A stretch of DNA of 47,034 bases from Methylobacter sp. GTDB taxonomy: Bacteria > Pseudomonadota > Gammaproteobacteria > Methylococcales > Methylomonadaceae. Below, one piece after another: positions 41,114-46,087 of this stretch (position 1 is the stretch's first letter; every line of letters starts with the position of its first letter). The notes below the pieces were generated by a model. That model was not told where the DNA came from. It worked only from the letters and a program-made list of their open reading frames with translations, and did not search any database. Both the position numbers and the translations under genes were made by a program. The stretch covers positions 1 through 47,034 of the forward strand of contig JANYKK010000222.1 of the NCBI GenBank assembly GCA_025361585.1, read 5' to 3'.

Positions 41114-41800
41114 TTATGGCAGATACAGTTTAAACCTGGCCCCGCCAAACTGACTATTATTGTCGGTTATAATATACCCCCGTTTATTTGCTTGACTATG
41201 TAATTGTGCAACGGCCTCGGCAAAAAATAATCCCAATCCAGTATTGCCGCTAGTTAGGTCAAGTTGAGGAAGTTGTTCGTATTCGGATGACATAAGACTT
41301 TCTGGATAACCCTCGCCATCATCTTCAATACAAAAAACCACGTAATCATTTTCCTGGCTGGCAGAAAGTAGAACTTTACTGCGGGAATAGCGTTGCGCAT
41401 TATTAACCAGCGTACTAAGGGCATTACTGATTAGCATTCTGTCGCAATAACAAAATAAATCATTATCGCATTGGCTAATGAATTCAACTTTACCGAAGGA
41501 GAATAAGGAATCGTGTTGATTGGTGATTTCCTCTAATATATCAGCAGCAGCATATTCGTCTATAGTCGGGCTAAATTGGGATAAGTCCAGCTTATAAAGT
41601 GTCAGTAACTGCATGAGACAATTGTACATGCGATTGGATTCATACTCTAATTGCATGAATTCATTTTGCTTTTCATCATGATGGATATCTCTGAGCCGAT
41701 CATGGAGAGTCCGAAGAGTCTTCAATGAATTTTTTATATCGTTCACTGAAGAGGCCAGAAGGGAGTTAAAGCTGGATGAAAGTATATGAGTATTAGACAT
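41114..41800 (-). CDS. Small histidine-kinase-like protein, phospho-acceptor His replaced by Asn
   Basis: 228 residues, no membrane segment or sensor domain. The HisKA-like helix reads SSVNDIKNSLKTL: the usual H in HDIKN is Asn20. The HATPase_c domain keeps the N box (LVNNAQRYS), G1 (EDDGEGYP) and G2 (GNTGLGLFFAEA). It can therefore probably bind ATP but cannot autophosphorylate at the usual site. The close paralogue at 43789-44490 keeps the His (SSVHDIKNS). It is the second gene of a two-gene module with the receiver-TPR protein (24-bp gap). Possible roles are a pseudokinase regulator of the other kinase, or an ATP-binding partner of the degenerate receiver. Confidence 0.8.
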   Translation of the reverse strand: MSNTHILSSSFNSLLASSVNDIKNSLKTLRTLHDRLRDIHHDEKQNEFMQLEYESNRMYNCLMQLLTLYKLDLSQFSPTIDEYAAADILEEITNQHDSLFSFGKVEFISQCDNDLFCYCDRMLISNALSTLVNNAQRYSRSKVLLSASQENDYVVFCIEDDGEGYPESLMSSEYEQLPQLDLTSGNTGLGLFFAEAVAQLHSQANKRGYIITDNNSQFGGARFKLYLP

Positions 41801-41824: not shown

Positions 41825-43447
41825 TTATTTAAAGGTATCCAACTGTGTTTGAAGGACGCTGATTTGATTATAAGGCATGCCTAGTTGAATGGCTTTATTG
41901 ATATAGGACTGGGCGATCATAATAGTTTTCGGATCGGCGTTAGAGATTTTAATGCTATAAATGATGATTTTTATCAGATTTAAAATAATTTTGTGATTAT
42001 TAGGCCTTTTGAGAACAGCTTGCTCCATAGTCGCAAGAGCCCCTTTAATATCACCTTCACTGAATAAACGGGCCGCCGTATTATTAAAGGCGGCTAATTC
42101 TTTATTTAAAGGCCCAATCAATGTTTCTGCATGGTTTTTAGCGATAAAAGTATCACATATTGTTACGATGTCTTGTAAGAATAGTGTGTCATCAACATTA
42201 GTTTTGACTAAATCATCAATAATTTCATTGCCTATGTTGCGGTTATTGCTTAAGCAAAAAGCCTTCGCCATTTCTAGGCGTAATTCTCTGGTTATCCGTT
42301 TATCATACTGCTTGTGTAATGCTGCTAGGTTTTCATAAGCTCGCTGAGCCAGCCGGGGGGCCATGTGGTGTCCGGTGCCTTTTTCTTGATGAATCCTGAT
42401 TTCTAACAGCGCAGCTGTAATCTTTGCTTCAGGGTCATTTTTGAACTGATAGTTCATCCTGTTCACTATTTCTAACGCCATATCGGCATCGTTATTTTTT
42501 AAATAAATGTTGGCTAAGCCTGAATAGTCGGAGGGGGATAGGTGTACGGAGGTTTTGCCTAATTCAATAGTGGCCATGTAGGCTTTTTGTGCAAGAGCGA
42601 TGTTTTCAGTTTTATCGGCCAGAATAGCCAATTTTTTTTGCCTTAAGATGGACTTAGGCGCAACTGTAACGGCCGAATTAACCACAGATAAAGCATTTTC
42701 TTCGTTATCCATAGACTCGTGCACTTTTGCCAGCCAATCATAAGCCTCTAGCATCATCGGATATTGCGCAATGAGTCCTTTAAAAGTCACAATAGCGCGA
42801 TCATAATCCGCAAGACCAACAGCGACAACGCCTAATCCCAATCTAGCCCAAGGAAGTTCTCTTTGGTTCAGAATATTTTGATAAATATCTTCCGCCTTCT
42901 TAAAGTCGCCGATCTTAAGTGCCAGTTCGGCGTGCATTTTTAATAATGTCAACCTCATGCTTTTATCATTCAACTGGAGCAACTGTTCACAATGATATAT
43001 GGCTTGGTATAGATTACCGCTGTCTACTTCATTTTCAATATTGGATAAGTATTCCTTGCGGGTAAGACATTTTTCAAGAAGGCTTAATAATTGTATGGGG
43101 CTAAAGGGTTTAATAAGATATTCATCGGGTTTGTTGTCGACAGTGCTAATCTCTAATTCCAGACGGTGCTCATCGGTAACCATGATAAAGATGGAATTAA
43201 CTGGCAACAACTTACGATGTCTGGCTTCTTCCAGAACCTGCTGACTGGTTTTCTTGTCGAGCAGATCGTAATCACAGAGCACAAAGTCAAACTTGTCTTT
43301 TTTCAGGAAGGCTATTGAGTTGACACCGGATTCTGCTGTAGTAATAAACTTGGCGCCTACTGAAACTAATATATGCTTAATAGTATCGCGCATTCTTTGG
43401 TGAGCACTAGCGACTAATATTTTTTTTGACGCGAGATTTATTGCCAT
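41825..43447 (-). CDS. Receiver-TPR response regulator, degenerate acidic pocket (module 1)
   Basis: 540 residues. An N-terminal receiver-like domain (1-125) keeps Asp59 (LCDYDL), Thr90 and Lys112, but the Mg-binding acidic pair (Glu14-Asp15 in the paralogue) is Ser14-Ala15 (ILVASAHQ). The rest (~135-540) is a long series of TPR-like helical repeats (NLYQAIYHCEQLLQ, AEDIYQNILNQRELPWARLG, then AQRAYENLAALHKQ), likely a protein-binding scaffold. It shares residue-by-residue numbering in the receiver with the protein at 44468-46087, so the two are clear paralogues. Without the acidic pair, phosphorylation of Asp59 should be impaired, so this copy may work without phosphate. Confidence 0.85.
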   Translation of the reverse strand: MAINLASKKILVASAHQRMRDTIKHILVSVGAKFITTAESGVNSIAFLKKDKFDFVLCDYDLLDKKTSQQVLEEARHRKLLPVNSIFIMVTDEHRLELEISTVDNKPDEYLIKPFSPIQLLSLLEKCLTRKEYLSNIENEVDSGNLYQAIYHCEQLLQLNDKSMRLTLLKMHAELALKIGDFKKAEDIYQNILNQRELPWARLGLGVVAVGLADYDRAIVTFKGLIAQYPMMLEAYDWLAKVHESMDNEENALSVVNSAVTVAPKSILRQKKLAILADKTENIALAQKAYMATIELGKTSVHLSPSDYSGLANIYLKNNDADMALEIVNRMNYQFKNDPEAKITAALLEIRIHQEKGTGHHMAPRLAQRAYENLAALHKQYDKRITRELRLEMAKAFCLSNNRNIGNEIIDDLVKTNVDDTLFLQDIVTICDTFIAKNHAETLIGPLNKELAAFNNTAARLFSEGDIKGALATMEQAVLKRPNNHKIILNLIKIIIYSIKISNADPKTIMIAQSYINKAIQLGMPYNQISVLQTQLDTFK

Positions 43448-43788
43448 AAAAATTAAATTTTAACCTTATACTTCATTTGTCTGGTTTGAGTTTGAAAAAA
43501 CCAAAACTTCCTACGTTTAGCGCTAATCTTAGTAGCTTATTTCTATATATGGAAGAAATGATATTGCCCAGATTTCACAGACACTTTCTTAAACGATTTT
43601 TCAGTATCAAAAGGTAGCCTCTGGACTGACACGGTCTGCTCGTCCAACGCCCGTTCTTTAAACTGGGCTGTATATTTGTTGCGGTAACGGGGGGAATTGA
43701 TTCTTTTTTATTATGGGTCTCGGTTTTAGAGATTACTCTCTTAGCCGAGAGTCCGCTTGATCGGGACAAGGTCAGACATTCATAATAG
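43448..43788. other. 341-bp gap between the two regulator modules
   Basis: It should hold the promoter of module 1, upstream of 43447. On the minus strand 43543-43707 is an open stretch of 54 codons without start codon, whose start (NKYTAQFKERALDE) has a vague resemblance to the N terminus of IS3-type OrfA transposases. It is too short and weak to call a gene. An ACTCTC / GAGAGT hairpin lies near 43732-43755. Confidence 0.35.
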
Positions 43789-44490
43789 TTATGGTAGATA
43801 AAGTTTAAATCTAGCTCCGCCAAGCTGACTATTATTATCGGTTTCAATAAAGCCCCGTTTGTCGCCTTTGACATGTAAGCGAGCAATTGTTTTAGCGAAA
43901 AACAATCCTAATCCGGTGTTGCCTGTAGCTAGGTCAAGCCGGGGAAGTTGTTGGTAATCGGAAGACATAAAATTTTCTGGATAACCCTTCCCATCATCTT
44001 CAATGCAAAAAACCACATAATCATCTTCCTGCTTGGCAGAAAGTAGAACTTTGCTAAGGCAATAGCGTTGGGCATTATTGACCAGTGTACAAAGAGCATT
44101 ACTGATCATTACACTGTCGCAATAACAAACCAGATTACTACTGCATTCGGTAATAAGTTGAATGTTGCTTAAGCTTGTTAAGGTGGAAAGCTGTTCGACA
44201 ACATCTTCCAACATATCGGTGACGTAATGCTCATCTATAATTGGGCTACATTGAGATATACCAATTTTATAAAGCGTCAGTAACTGCATGAGACTATTGT
44301 TCATGCGGTTGGCTTCAAAATTTAATTGTTTTAATTCGGTAGGTTTTTGTTCTTTTAAAATACCTTCAATTTGGGAATGAACCATTTTAAGCTCTTGCAA
44401 CGAATTCTTTATATCATGCACTGAAGATGCCAGGAGAGCGGAAAAATTGGTTGCAAGCATGTCAGAATCAGGCACTAGTAGATATATCAT
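43789..44490 (-). CDS. Small histidine kinase (intact, module 2)
   Basis: 233 residues from 44490 (alternative start ATG 44460, which would give 223 residues and align with the start of the paralogue). The HisKA-like motif SSVHDIKNSLQEL keeps the phospho-acceptor His25. The HATPase domain has the N box (LVNNAQRYC), G1 (EDDGKGYP) and G2 (GNTGLGLFFAKT). There is no membrane or sensor domain, so it is a soluble kinase that probably works with the receiver-TPR protein encoded upstream and overlapping it by up to 23 bp. The core is highly similar to 41114-41800. Confidence 0.87.
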   Translation of the reverse strand: MIYLLVPDSDMLATNFSALLASSVHDIKNSLQELKMVHSQIEGILKEQKPTELKQLNFEANRMNNSLMQLLTLYKIGISQCSPIIDEHYVTDMLEDVVEQLSTLTSLSNIQLITECSSNLVCYCDSVMISNALCTLVNNAQRYCLSKVLLSAKQEDDYVVFCIEDDGKGYPENFMSSDYQQLPRLDLATGNTGLGLFFAKTIARLHVKGDKRGFIETDNNSQLGGARFKLYLP

Positions 44491-46087
44491 TCAGCGCTGT
44501 TTGAATTACGCTGATTTTATTGTGAGGAATGCCTAATTGAACGGCTTTATTGATATAGGACTGGGCGATCATGCTGGTTCTCGGATCGGAGTTAGAGCTT
44601 TTAAGATCATGTAGAAGAATTTGTACTATATTTAAAATGATCGTGTGATTATTGGGCATGATGGCAAGGGCTTTTTCAAAAAACACAAGTGCTTCTTTAC
44701 TATCGCCTTCTTCGAATAGGCTAACACCTTTATTATTGAGATCAACCAATTCCTTTTTTATTTGTTTAATCAGAACTTGCGCATGGTCTTTGCCGATAAT
44801 GGCATCACACATGGTAACGATATTTTTGATGAAAATTTTATCATCGATATTGGTTTTAATTAAGTCATTTAGAATGTCATCGCAAACTTCGCTGTTACCG
44901 TTCAGGTGAAAGGTCTTTGCACTTTCCAGGCGCGTTTCCCTACTTATCTGTTTGCTAAACTGCTTGTTTAGATTGACTATTCTTTCGTAGGCCTGCAAAG
45001 CTAGCATCTTATTGCCTTGTATTTGATGAATCTCTGTTTCTACCAGGGCGGCTCTAAGGTTTGCTTCAGGATCATCGCGAAACTGCTGGTTTATCGTATT
45101 CACTACGCGTAGCGCTTCATCAAGGGAGTTACTTTTTACATACACATTGGCTAACCCCGAATAGTCGCTGGACGATCCGTGTATCGAGTTTTTGCCAAGG
45201 TTAATCGCGGCCGTATAGGCTTTAGTTGCAGTAGTGAGATGCTCAATTTTCTCAGCCAGCAAGGCCAGTTTTCTTTGTCTTAAGATAGAATTAGGCGAAA
45301 GCGTAACCGCCGAGTTAAGTGAAGAGGTGGCGTGCACATCGTTACCCATAGATTCGTGAGCTTTTACTAGCCAGTCATAAGCCTCCAGCATCATCGGGTA
45401 TTGCTCGATGAGCTCCTGAAAAACATTTATCGCTTGATTGTAATATCCAAGATAAAAATCAACCGTACCTAATCCTAATTTGACCCAGGGGAGTTCTCTT
45501 TCGTGCTGAAGGTCTTGATAGATGTCCTTAGCCATATTTAAATCACCCACCATAATGGAGAGTTCAGCGTATTTTTTTGATATTTGTAAACGCATTTTTT
45601 TATCATCACTCTGCACAAGCAGTCTTTTGCAATGATGAATGGCTTGATAAAGATTGCCGCTATCTATTTCATTTTCAATGCTAGCCATGTAATCTTTGCG
45701 GGCTTGGCATTTTTCAATACGGCTTGATAATTGTTTTAAGCTAAAGGGTTTTATTAGGTAGTCATCGGGTTTATTTTCTATCGCATTAAGGACTATTTCC
45801 ATGCGAAATTCACCAGTTACCATAATAAAAATGGAATTAACTGGCAGTAACTTAAAATGTCTGGCCTCTTCCAGAACTTGCTGACCATTCTTTTTACCAA
45901 GCAAATTGTAATCACAAAGCACGATATCAAATTTTTTAATGCGCATTGCTCTTAATGCGCTAACGCCGGATGTTTCAATAAGAATAAACTTAGCACCCAT
46001 TGAACGCAGTATTTCTTTGATTGCGTTGCTCATACTTGCCTGATCTTCGATGATCAATATCTTTTTTGAGGCGAGGTCTATTGCCAT
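44468..46087 (-). CDS. Receiver-TPR response regulator (intact, module 2)
   Basis: 539 residues. The receiver domain is complete: Glu14-Asp15 (ILIIEDQ), phospho-acceptor Asp59 (VLCDYN), Thr90 (IMVTGE) and Lys112 (YLIKPF). TPR-like repeats fill ~135-539, with the same order of segments as in module 1. Such receiver-TPR proteins occur beside small HATPase proteins in several gammaproteobacteria, and their outputs are mostly unknown. The next gene, encoding the kinase, overlaps it. The +1 side shows no clear sigma-70 promoter to my eye. Confidence 0.87.
   Translation of the reverse strand: MAIDLASKKILIIEDQASMSNAIKEILRSMGAKFILIETSGVSALRAMRIKKFDIVLCDYNLLGKKNGQQVLEEARHFKLLPVNSIFIMVTGEFRMEIVLNAIENKPDDYLIKPFSLKQLSSRIEKCQARKDYMASIENEIDSGNLYQAIHHCKRLLVQSDDKKMRLQISKKYAELSIMVGDLNMAKDIYQDLQHERELPWVKLGLGTVDFYLGYYNQAINVFQELIEQYPMMLEAYDWLVKAHESMGNDVHATSSLNSAVTLSPNSILRQRKLALLAEKIEHLTTATKAYTAAINLGKNSIHGSSSDYSGLANVYVKSNSLDEALRVVNTINQQFRDDPEANLRAALVETEIHQIQGNKMLALQAYERIVNLNKQFSKQISRETRLESAKTFHLNGNSEVCDDILNDLIKTNIDDKIFIKNIVTMCDAIIGKDHAQVLIKQIKKELVDLNNKGVSLFEEGDSKEALVFFEKALAIMPNNHTIILNIVQILLHDLKSSNSDPRTSMIAQSYINKAVQLGIPHNKISVIQTALNDISTSA

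Follow-up and report, generated by a model that had tools for sequence, protein, structure and literature searches.

Two tandem modules, each pairing a receiver protein with a histidine kinase, lie on the minus strand of the Methylobacter sp. contig investigated here (C292; the window, that is, the whole stretch of 47,034 nucleotides that was analysed), which is part of a 3.28-Mb draft genome (G000; 400 contigs, 81% complete). In one of these modules both the receiver and the kinase have lost residues of the phosphate-transfer chemistry, and the locus raises the question of whether such a module is kept for another job or is a redundant duplicate in decay.

Two modules and their active sites

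The two modules are RR2-HK2 (46087-43789) and RR1-HK1 (43447-41114), hereafter modules 2 and 1, respectively. The receiver-TPR proteins have 539-540 residues; the kinases are soluble cores of 228-233 residues, and a Pfam search recognised no sensor domain in HK1 or HK2. The features relevant to this analysis are as follows:

44468-46087, minus strand: RR2, sister receiver-TPR protein with Glu14-Asp15, Asp59, Thr91 and Lys113 (Pfam Response_reg, 51.2 bits; alignment)
43789-44490, minus strand: HK2, kinase of the sister module, in which the acceptor His (VHDIKN, bases 44416-44418) is present and the N, G1 and G2 boxes are intact
43448-43788, no strand: spacer of 341 bases between the modules (sequence)
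41825-43447, minus strand: RR1, pseudo-receiver, with a receiver domain at about residues 1-128 and a TPR superhelix at about residues 129-540
43403-43408, minus strand: Ser14-Ala15 codons of RR1, replacing the Mg-binding acidic pair (sequence)
41114-41800, minus strand: HK1, pseudokinase, DHp and CA core of 228 aa (Pfam HATPase_c, 36.8 bits)
41741-41743, minus strand: Asn20 codon of HK1, replacing the phospho-acceptor His (sequence)

HK2 was called from its first ATG, which results in a 23-base overlap with RR2. The spacer was considered as a possible repeated element and rejected as such, a second copy being absent from the genome, and a short peptide read from it by eye had no match in Pfam. 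A scan of positions 43400-43850 returned three promoter sites, compared to 1.5 ± 1.2 expected, and found no terminator in the same interval.

The receiver-TPR proteins, which read MAINLASKKILVASAHQ... (RR1) and MAIDLASKKILIIEDQ... (RR2), differ at the acidic pair in the way that a previous, sequence-only reading of this DNA had described, with Ser14-Ala15 in RR1 (AGT GCT at 43403-43408, minus strand) against Glu14-Asp15 in RR2 (46043-46048). The same reading had listed Asp59, Thr90 and Lys112 as remaining in RR1; all three residues are kept, but the alignment places the latter two at positions 91 and 113. Its further statement that the partner kinase has lost the phospho-acceptor His is borne out by the motif SSVNDIKNSL in HK1 (Asn20), compared to SSVHDIKNSL in HK2.

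With a recognised receiver domain (Response_reg at 30.3 bits, barely above the cut-off of 30.2, with TPR_19 recognised too), a non-acidic Ser14-Ala15 and D59, T91 and K113 kept, RR1 qualifies as a PF00072 pseudo-receiver. An assignment to the aspartate-less receivers (ALR) was ruled out by the presence of the acceptor Asp59. HK1 qualifies as a pseudo-histidine kinase, having a histidine-kinase core with Asn20 at the acceptor position. Other active-site departures in RR1 are Asp92, directly after the conserved Thr, Asp61, two residues past the acceptor Asp, and Ser68 in place of the family Gly. RR1 departs from the family at 7 of 72 conserved positions, five of them in the receiver, and HK1 at two (H20N and N59Y) of 40, the other 38 being kept. 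The eight other catalytic positions examined in HK1 are all kept, and Asp21, Asn24 and the N, G1 and G2 boxes are intact.

AlphaFold2 models reached a mean pLDDT of 87.3 for RR1 and 83.0 for HK1, with low-confidence stretches at residues 95-102 of RR1 (the sole run of at least three residues with a pLDDT below 50) and 175-178 of HK1. Foldseek matches of HK1 include CpxA, HK853 and DivL, and among the 50 listed matches the DivL chain 4q20_A has the top query TM-score (0.71), its E-value not being the best. Of the 16 positions of helix 4 of the RR1 receiver (residues 92-107), which holds the stretch under pLDDT 50, 5 fit the canonical consensus. A change in the output face of RR1 may have accompanied that of the active site, and since helix 4 fits the consensus at so few positions, the partner surface is equally likely to be changed or kept.

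Occurrence and order of the two losses

A match to RR1 at an E-value of 1e-60 or better is present in 85 of the 237 genomes of the family. The survey set comprised 115 receiver frames or fragments and 92 kinases, collected by genus and family searches together with three outgroup loci. Among L128-L150, matches that were archaeal, from Acidobacteria or Vibrio, or unplaced were left out (identities of 22-32%, with many only partial), including L133, a Methylotuvimicrobium contig already counted under its genome. After setting aside five receiver fragments without letters at the acidic pair, 110 receivers were compared, of which 95 have Glu-Asp (ED) and 11 Asp-Asp (DD), while Ser-Ala (SA), Glu-Ala (EA), Glu-Asn (EN) and Asp-Gly (DG) were each found once. 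Residue 15 is Asp in 106 of the 110; Asp59 was seen without exception (110 of 110), as was Lys113 (111 of 111). Of the 92 kinases, 90 have His at residue 20, the exceptions being Asn in HK1 and Asp in the kinase of genome G016, and losses at nine catalytic kinase positions were found in three of 91 complete kinases, a count from which the truncated kinase G155 was left out. Four more receivers, from three genomes of another family of the order and not included in these counts, carry Asp-Asp without exception, and His is present in both complete kinases adjoining them.

The two losses had been described as a matching change in two genes of one module, with the question of whether they always occur together. 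This does not hold: among 88 receiver-kinase pairs, SA+Asn, EA+His, EN+His and ED+Asp were found once each and ED or DD with His 84 times, so that both changes occur in one pair (the one in the window) and one change alone in three. Strict coupling of the receiver and kinase changes was rejected on the basis of these three pairs and of a probability of 0.067 for at least one chance overlap of both changes. A defective kinase, with a loss at any of the nine catalytic positions, is present in two of the three pairs with a defective receiver, compared to one of the 84 with an intact receiver (p = 0.0024), the two belonging to one clade whose receiver side is not independent. These sequences are suggestive of a softer coupling, in which a single receiver event would have preceded two kinase events.

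In the receiver tree, RR1 and the G007 receiver, which has EA, form a clade (100/100) with two known members only, and this clade sits within a group of eight duplicates (99/98) including RR2. In the kinase tree, the grouping of HK1 with the G007 kinase reaches a support of 86/93 only. RR1 and the G007 receiver have the departures D15A, R123L, S263A and V459A in common, as well as Asp61 and Asp92; the G007 kinase retains its His and has Gly162Ser in the G1 box (ATP site). By parsimony, Ala15 is older than the split between RR1 and G007, and Ser14 and the kinase Asn20 arose on the branch leading to the window. Because G007 combines Ala15 with a His kinase, the receiver would have changed before the kinase: as the sequences are read here, the receiver metal site was lost first, each partner kinase being altered later.

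Paralogues of the modules and selection on module 1

Five receiver-TPR proteins and three kinases are carried by the genome of the window. The copy on contig C345 has an ED pair and a kinase with His, and adjoins htpG; the copy on C245 also has ED, with no kinase alongside. The copy on C109 (L004:1501-3135) has Asp14-Gly15, a six-residue insert after Asp59, a long branch and no adjoining kinase.

Departures were also observed in other genomes. In G022:C4 (L059:4619-8025) two tandem receivers lie together with one kinase, and the receiver nearer the kinase has Asn15 for Asp. The G016 kinase (L088; G016:C173:1272-1943) has H20D together with G188H in the G2 box, and lies beside an intact receiver (1958). 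In G017 and G018, which are related to G016, the corresponding second receiver has no adjoining kinase and there is one kinase per genome; the pattern in these three genomes looks like kinase loss after duplication. The kinase-less extra receiver of G021 (L057; G021:C1:2787586-2791757) is broken by a stop, and its two matching parts are separated by an interruption of about 2.5 kb.

Receivers outnumber kinases in 15 of the 17 Methylobacter genomes with more than one receiver (mostly drafts, with the G021 extra receiver broken), which implies kinase sharing among receivers. Per-genome kinase counts are genome-wide for this genus only, and those of the Nitrosomonas and Thiodiazotropha rows were left out. 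One kinase probably serves several receivers, unless some receivers work alone or the drafts miss genes. Receivers that have letters at the acidic pair and no adjoining kinase in the stretch examined keep ED in 21 of 22 cases, a few of these stretches stopping at a contig end. All four pseudo-receivers are located in multi-copy genomes (4 of 42 receivers, compared to 0 of 68), with p = 0.019, which becomes 0.051 when SA and EA are counted as one event.

Single modules are commonly located divergently from htpG and ahead of holA-lptE-leuS (gene names by eye), and htpG is located within 600 bases upstream of 60 of the 105 receivers with enough flank, according to an exact short-peptide test that undercounts. 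Divergent htpG-adjoining loci include L002, L058, L059, L061, L110, L122 and L123, among others, with holA, lptE and leuS downstream in many of them.

Selection was estimated with a purpose-written codon model on a fixed receiver tree, used for the kinases as well, with 13 sequences and at most 40 iterations, and the values are approximate. Whole-gene dN/dS is 0.36 for RR1 against a background of 0.20 (below 1 at p = 1.3e-7, above background at p = 0.001) and 0.36 for HK1 against a background of 0.16 (below 1 at p = 7.7e-5, above background at p = 0.001). Taken alone, the receiver part of RR1 has a dN/dS of 0.52, indistinguishable from 1 (p = 0.13). On the stem of the RR1-G007 clade, dN/dS of the receiver-TPR gene exceeds 1 on a very short branch (p = 1.7e-8 against background and 0.084 against 1), and the kinase gives p = 0.0016 against background and 0.17 against 1. 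The frames of RR1 and HK1 are open over 540 and 228 codons, in which about 4.6 and 2.4 stop codons, respectively (about seven for both genes), would be expected had the rise in dN/dS over background come from a recent neutral phase, and none was observed.

Frameshifts and neutral rates in module 1, which the sequence-only reading had named as signs of decay that would speak against it, are not seen at the level of the whole genes, the receiver alone being inseparable from neutral. As wholes, both genes are under purifying selection, weaker than in the family. A pseudogene status of module 1 was rejected on the open frames, the whole-gene dN/dS and the missing stops.

Possible roles of module 1

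Taken singly, the two parts of module 1 are ordinary. According to Bourret et al. 2025 (PMC12632262), about 6% of bacterial receivers are pseudo-receivers and 0.9% of HisKA domains are without the His; DD2 is non-acidic in about 80% of the bacterial pseudo-receivers, and D, T and K each stay at about 65%. RR1 resembles the typical PF00072 pseudo-receiver described there, with DD2 lost and D, T and K kept, and is unlike it in having an adjoining pseudokinase gene and being one of five paralogues. A pseudo-receiver or a pseudo-histidine kinase alone is known; their pairing in one operon, the ordered steps and the intact sisters are unusual. No pairing of a pseudokinase and a pseudo-receiver in one operon was found among titles and abstract openings in the literature searched, a collection with few subscription journals, and the same literature yielded nothing on point for this receiver-TPR pair in Methylobacter or Methylomonas.

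It had been proposed that module 1 was converted as a whole to a phosphate-independent role. This stands in so far as both partners have lost key phosphate-transfer residues and the genes are not dead, and fails in so far as no single matched event occurred, so that a conversion of the module is plausible, but stepwise. We consider it close to an even call, falling just on the doubtful side, that module 1 is a duplicated pair which lost its phosphate chemistry in steps and was kept for a phosphate-independent job. Against this reading, the G016 kinase, whose neighbouring receiver is intact, has lost both its His and a glycine of the G2 box, so that kinase loss can occur without receiver change, and the branches of RR1 and HK1 have about double the background dN/dS, with the RR1 receiver inseparable from 1.

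Module 1 could instead be a redundant duplicate in slow decay, in which first the receiver and then the kinase would have lost active-site residues, with no selection for phosphate transfer, a residual folding constraint and no specific job. We regard this as rather unlikely, though it draws on the raised dN/dS of both branches (p = 0.001 each), on an RR1 receiver not different from 1, on the burst of amino-acid change on the stem and on the losses nearby, namely H20D and G188H in the G016 kinase, the kinase-less second receivers of G017 and G018 and the broken extra receiver of G021. It is at odds with 540 and 228 open codons, whole-gene dN/dS below 1, 38 of 40 kinase positions kept and the absence of stops where about seven would be expected.

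A job on the kinase side, with HK1 as a phosphatase on intact receivers or paired with HK2 in a heterodimer of which it would be the catalytic or reader half, and with RR1 as a constitutively active output whose change is functionally unrelated to that of the kinase, is in our opinion unlikely. Asp21, Asn24 and the N, G1 and G2 boxes of HK1 are in its favour. HK1 keeps a DxxN phosphatase-type motif, in that its NDIKN retains both the acidic residue and the Asn by which the phosphatase motif of HisKA proteins is marked. According to PMC12632262, HisKA phosphatase activity is possible without the His, though the His contributes, but the same source argues against phosphatase work as a general reason for His loss. 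According to PMC12675982 and PMC4211667, respectively, FasB and FasC heterodimerise, and DivL, which has Tyr for the His and the other boxes kept, binds DivK-P; DivL is also the protein whose chain 4q20_A leads the 50 listed matches of HK1 by query TM-score, without leading by E-value. DivL and FasC, to which HK1 is comparable, are described there as histidine-kinase cores without the acceptor His (DivL) or without catalysis (FasC, as proposed) that are kept for protein contacts. However, both have sensing regions, whereas none was recognised in HK1 that could steer it, DivL has Tyr where HK1 has Asn, and FasC keeps the acceptor His. The kinase of G007, with its His retained and Gly162Ser in its ATP site, is at odds with a phosphatase or reader role common to both relatives.

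An assembly or read error is highly improbable: although the draft is fragmented (400 contigs, 81% complete) and His to Asn in HK1 is explicable by one base, Glu to Ser needs at least two base changes, so that one read error is not enough to account for the change in the receiver, the acidic pair as a whole needs at least three, Ala15 is common to an independent genome and several active-site changes are linked.

For a module kept for a phosphate-independent job, the most likely arrangement, by analogy, would be RR1 as a locked inhibitor or competitor at sister kinases and HK1 as a pseudokinase subunit, because Osp and FixT without the acidic pair and VieB with the receiver-TPR layout inhibit kinases. 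VieB of Vibrio cholerae is described in PMC4352251 as a receiver-TPR protein that binds its kinase and blocks autophosphorylation, the unphosphorylatable variant D62A inhibiting as well as the wild type. Its likeness to RR1 is one of layout, a receiver and TPR protein encoded with a histidine kinase, and VieB inhibits when unphosphorylated. VieB differs in that, with its acceptor Asp kept, inhibition is thought to be relieved by phosphorylation, and in acting on VieS, which passes phosphate internally to its own receiver, beside the output regulator VieA, whereas HK1 is a soluble core of 228 aa. According to PMC9430884, CckA is blocked by Osp, which is without the acidic pair, and the FixT proteins are described as being without it too; as in RR1 the pair is missing, and Osp and FixT were not seen phosphorylated and inhibit kinase autophosphorylation. 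In contrast to RR1, Osp is a single domain without TPR in which the conserved Lys is also gone.

On this analogy RR1, which presumably cannot be phosphorylated, would stay in one conformation and could dock on the cores of HK2 and of the C345 kinase, in the manner of VieB, Osp and FixT. Docked RR1 would lower the autophosphorylation of the sister kinases or compete with working receivers. HK1, with its DHp helices, DxxN phosphatase-type motif and ATP-site boxes, could dimerise, possibly with sister kinases, and could bind receivers, and would be unable to donate phosphate. The gain or threshold of the working modules would then depend on the dose of module 1. A role of RR1 and HK1 as decoy or partner for module 2, which the sequence-only reading had offered, is a possible candidate, and the C345 kinase is an equally good candidate partner. 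More specifically, we tentatively propose, as an idea on the doubtful side, that this pseudoenzyme-pair operon lost its metal site and then its phospho-acceptor, and persists as a trans-acting, dose-dependent regulator of the kinases and receivers of the sister modules.

Eukaryotic TPR proteins are partners of Hsp90, which suggests a possible link of the receiver-TPR pair to HtpG (Hsp90). In this family, pseudo-receivers arise in duplicated copies beside intact sisters of the same genomes, and the order of loss appears to run from receiver to kinase. A natural series of these states is thus available in methanotrophs, of which some have relatives in culture (M. tundripaludum, for instance), from intact modules through EA with a His kinase and SA with an Asn kinase to EN and DG.
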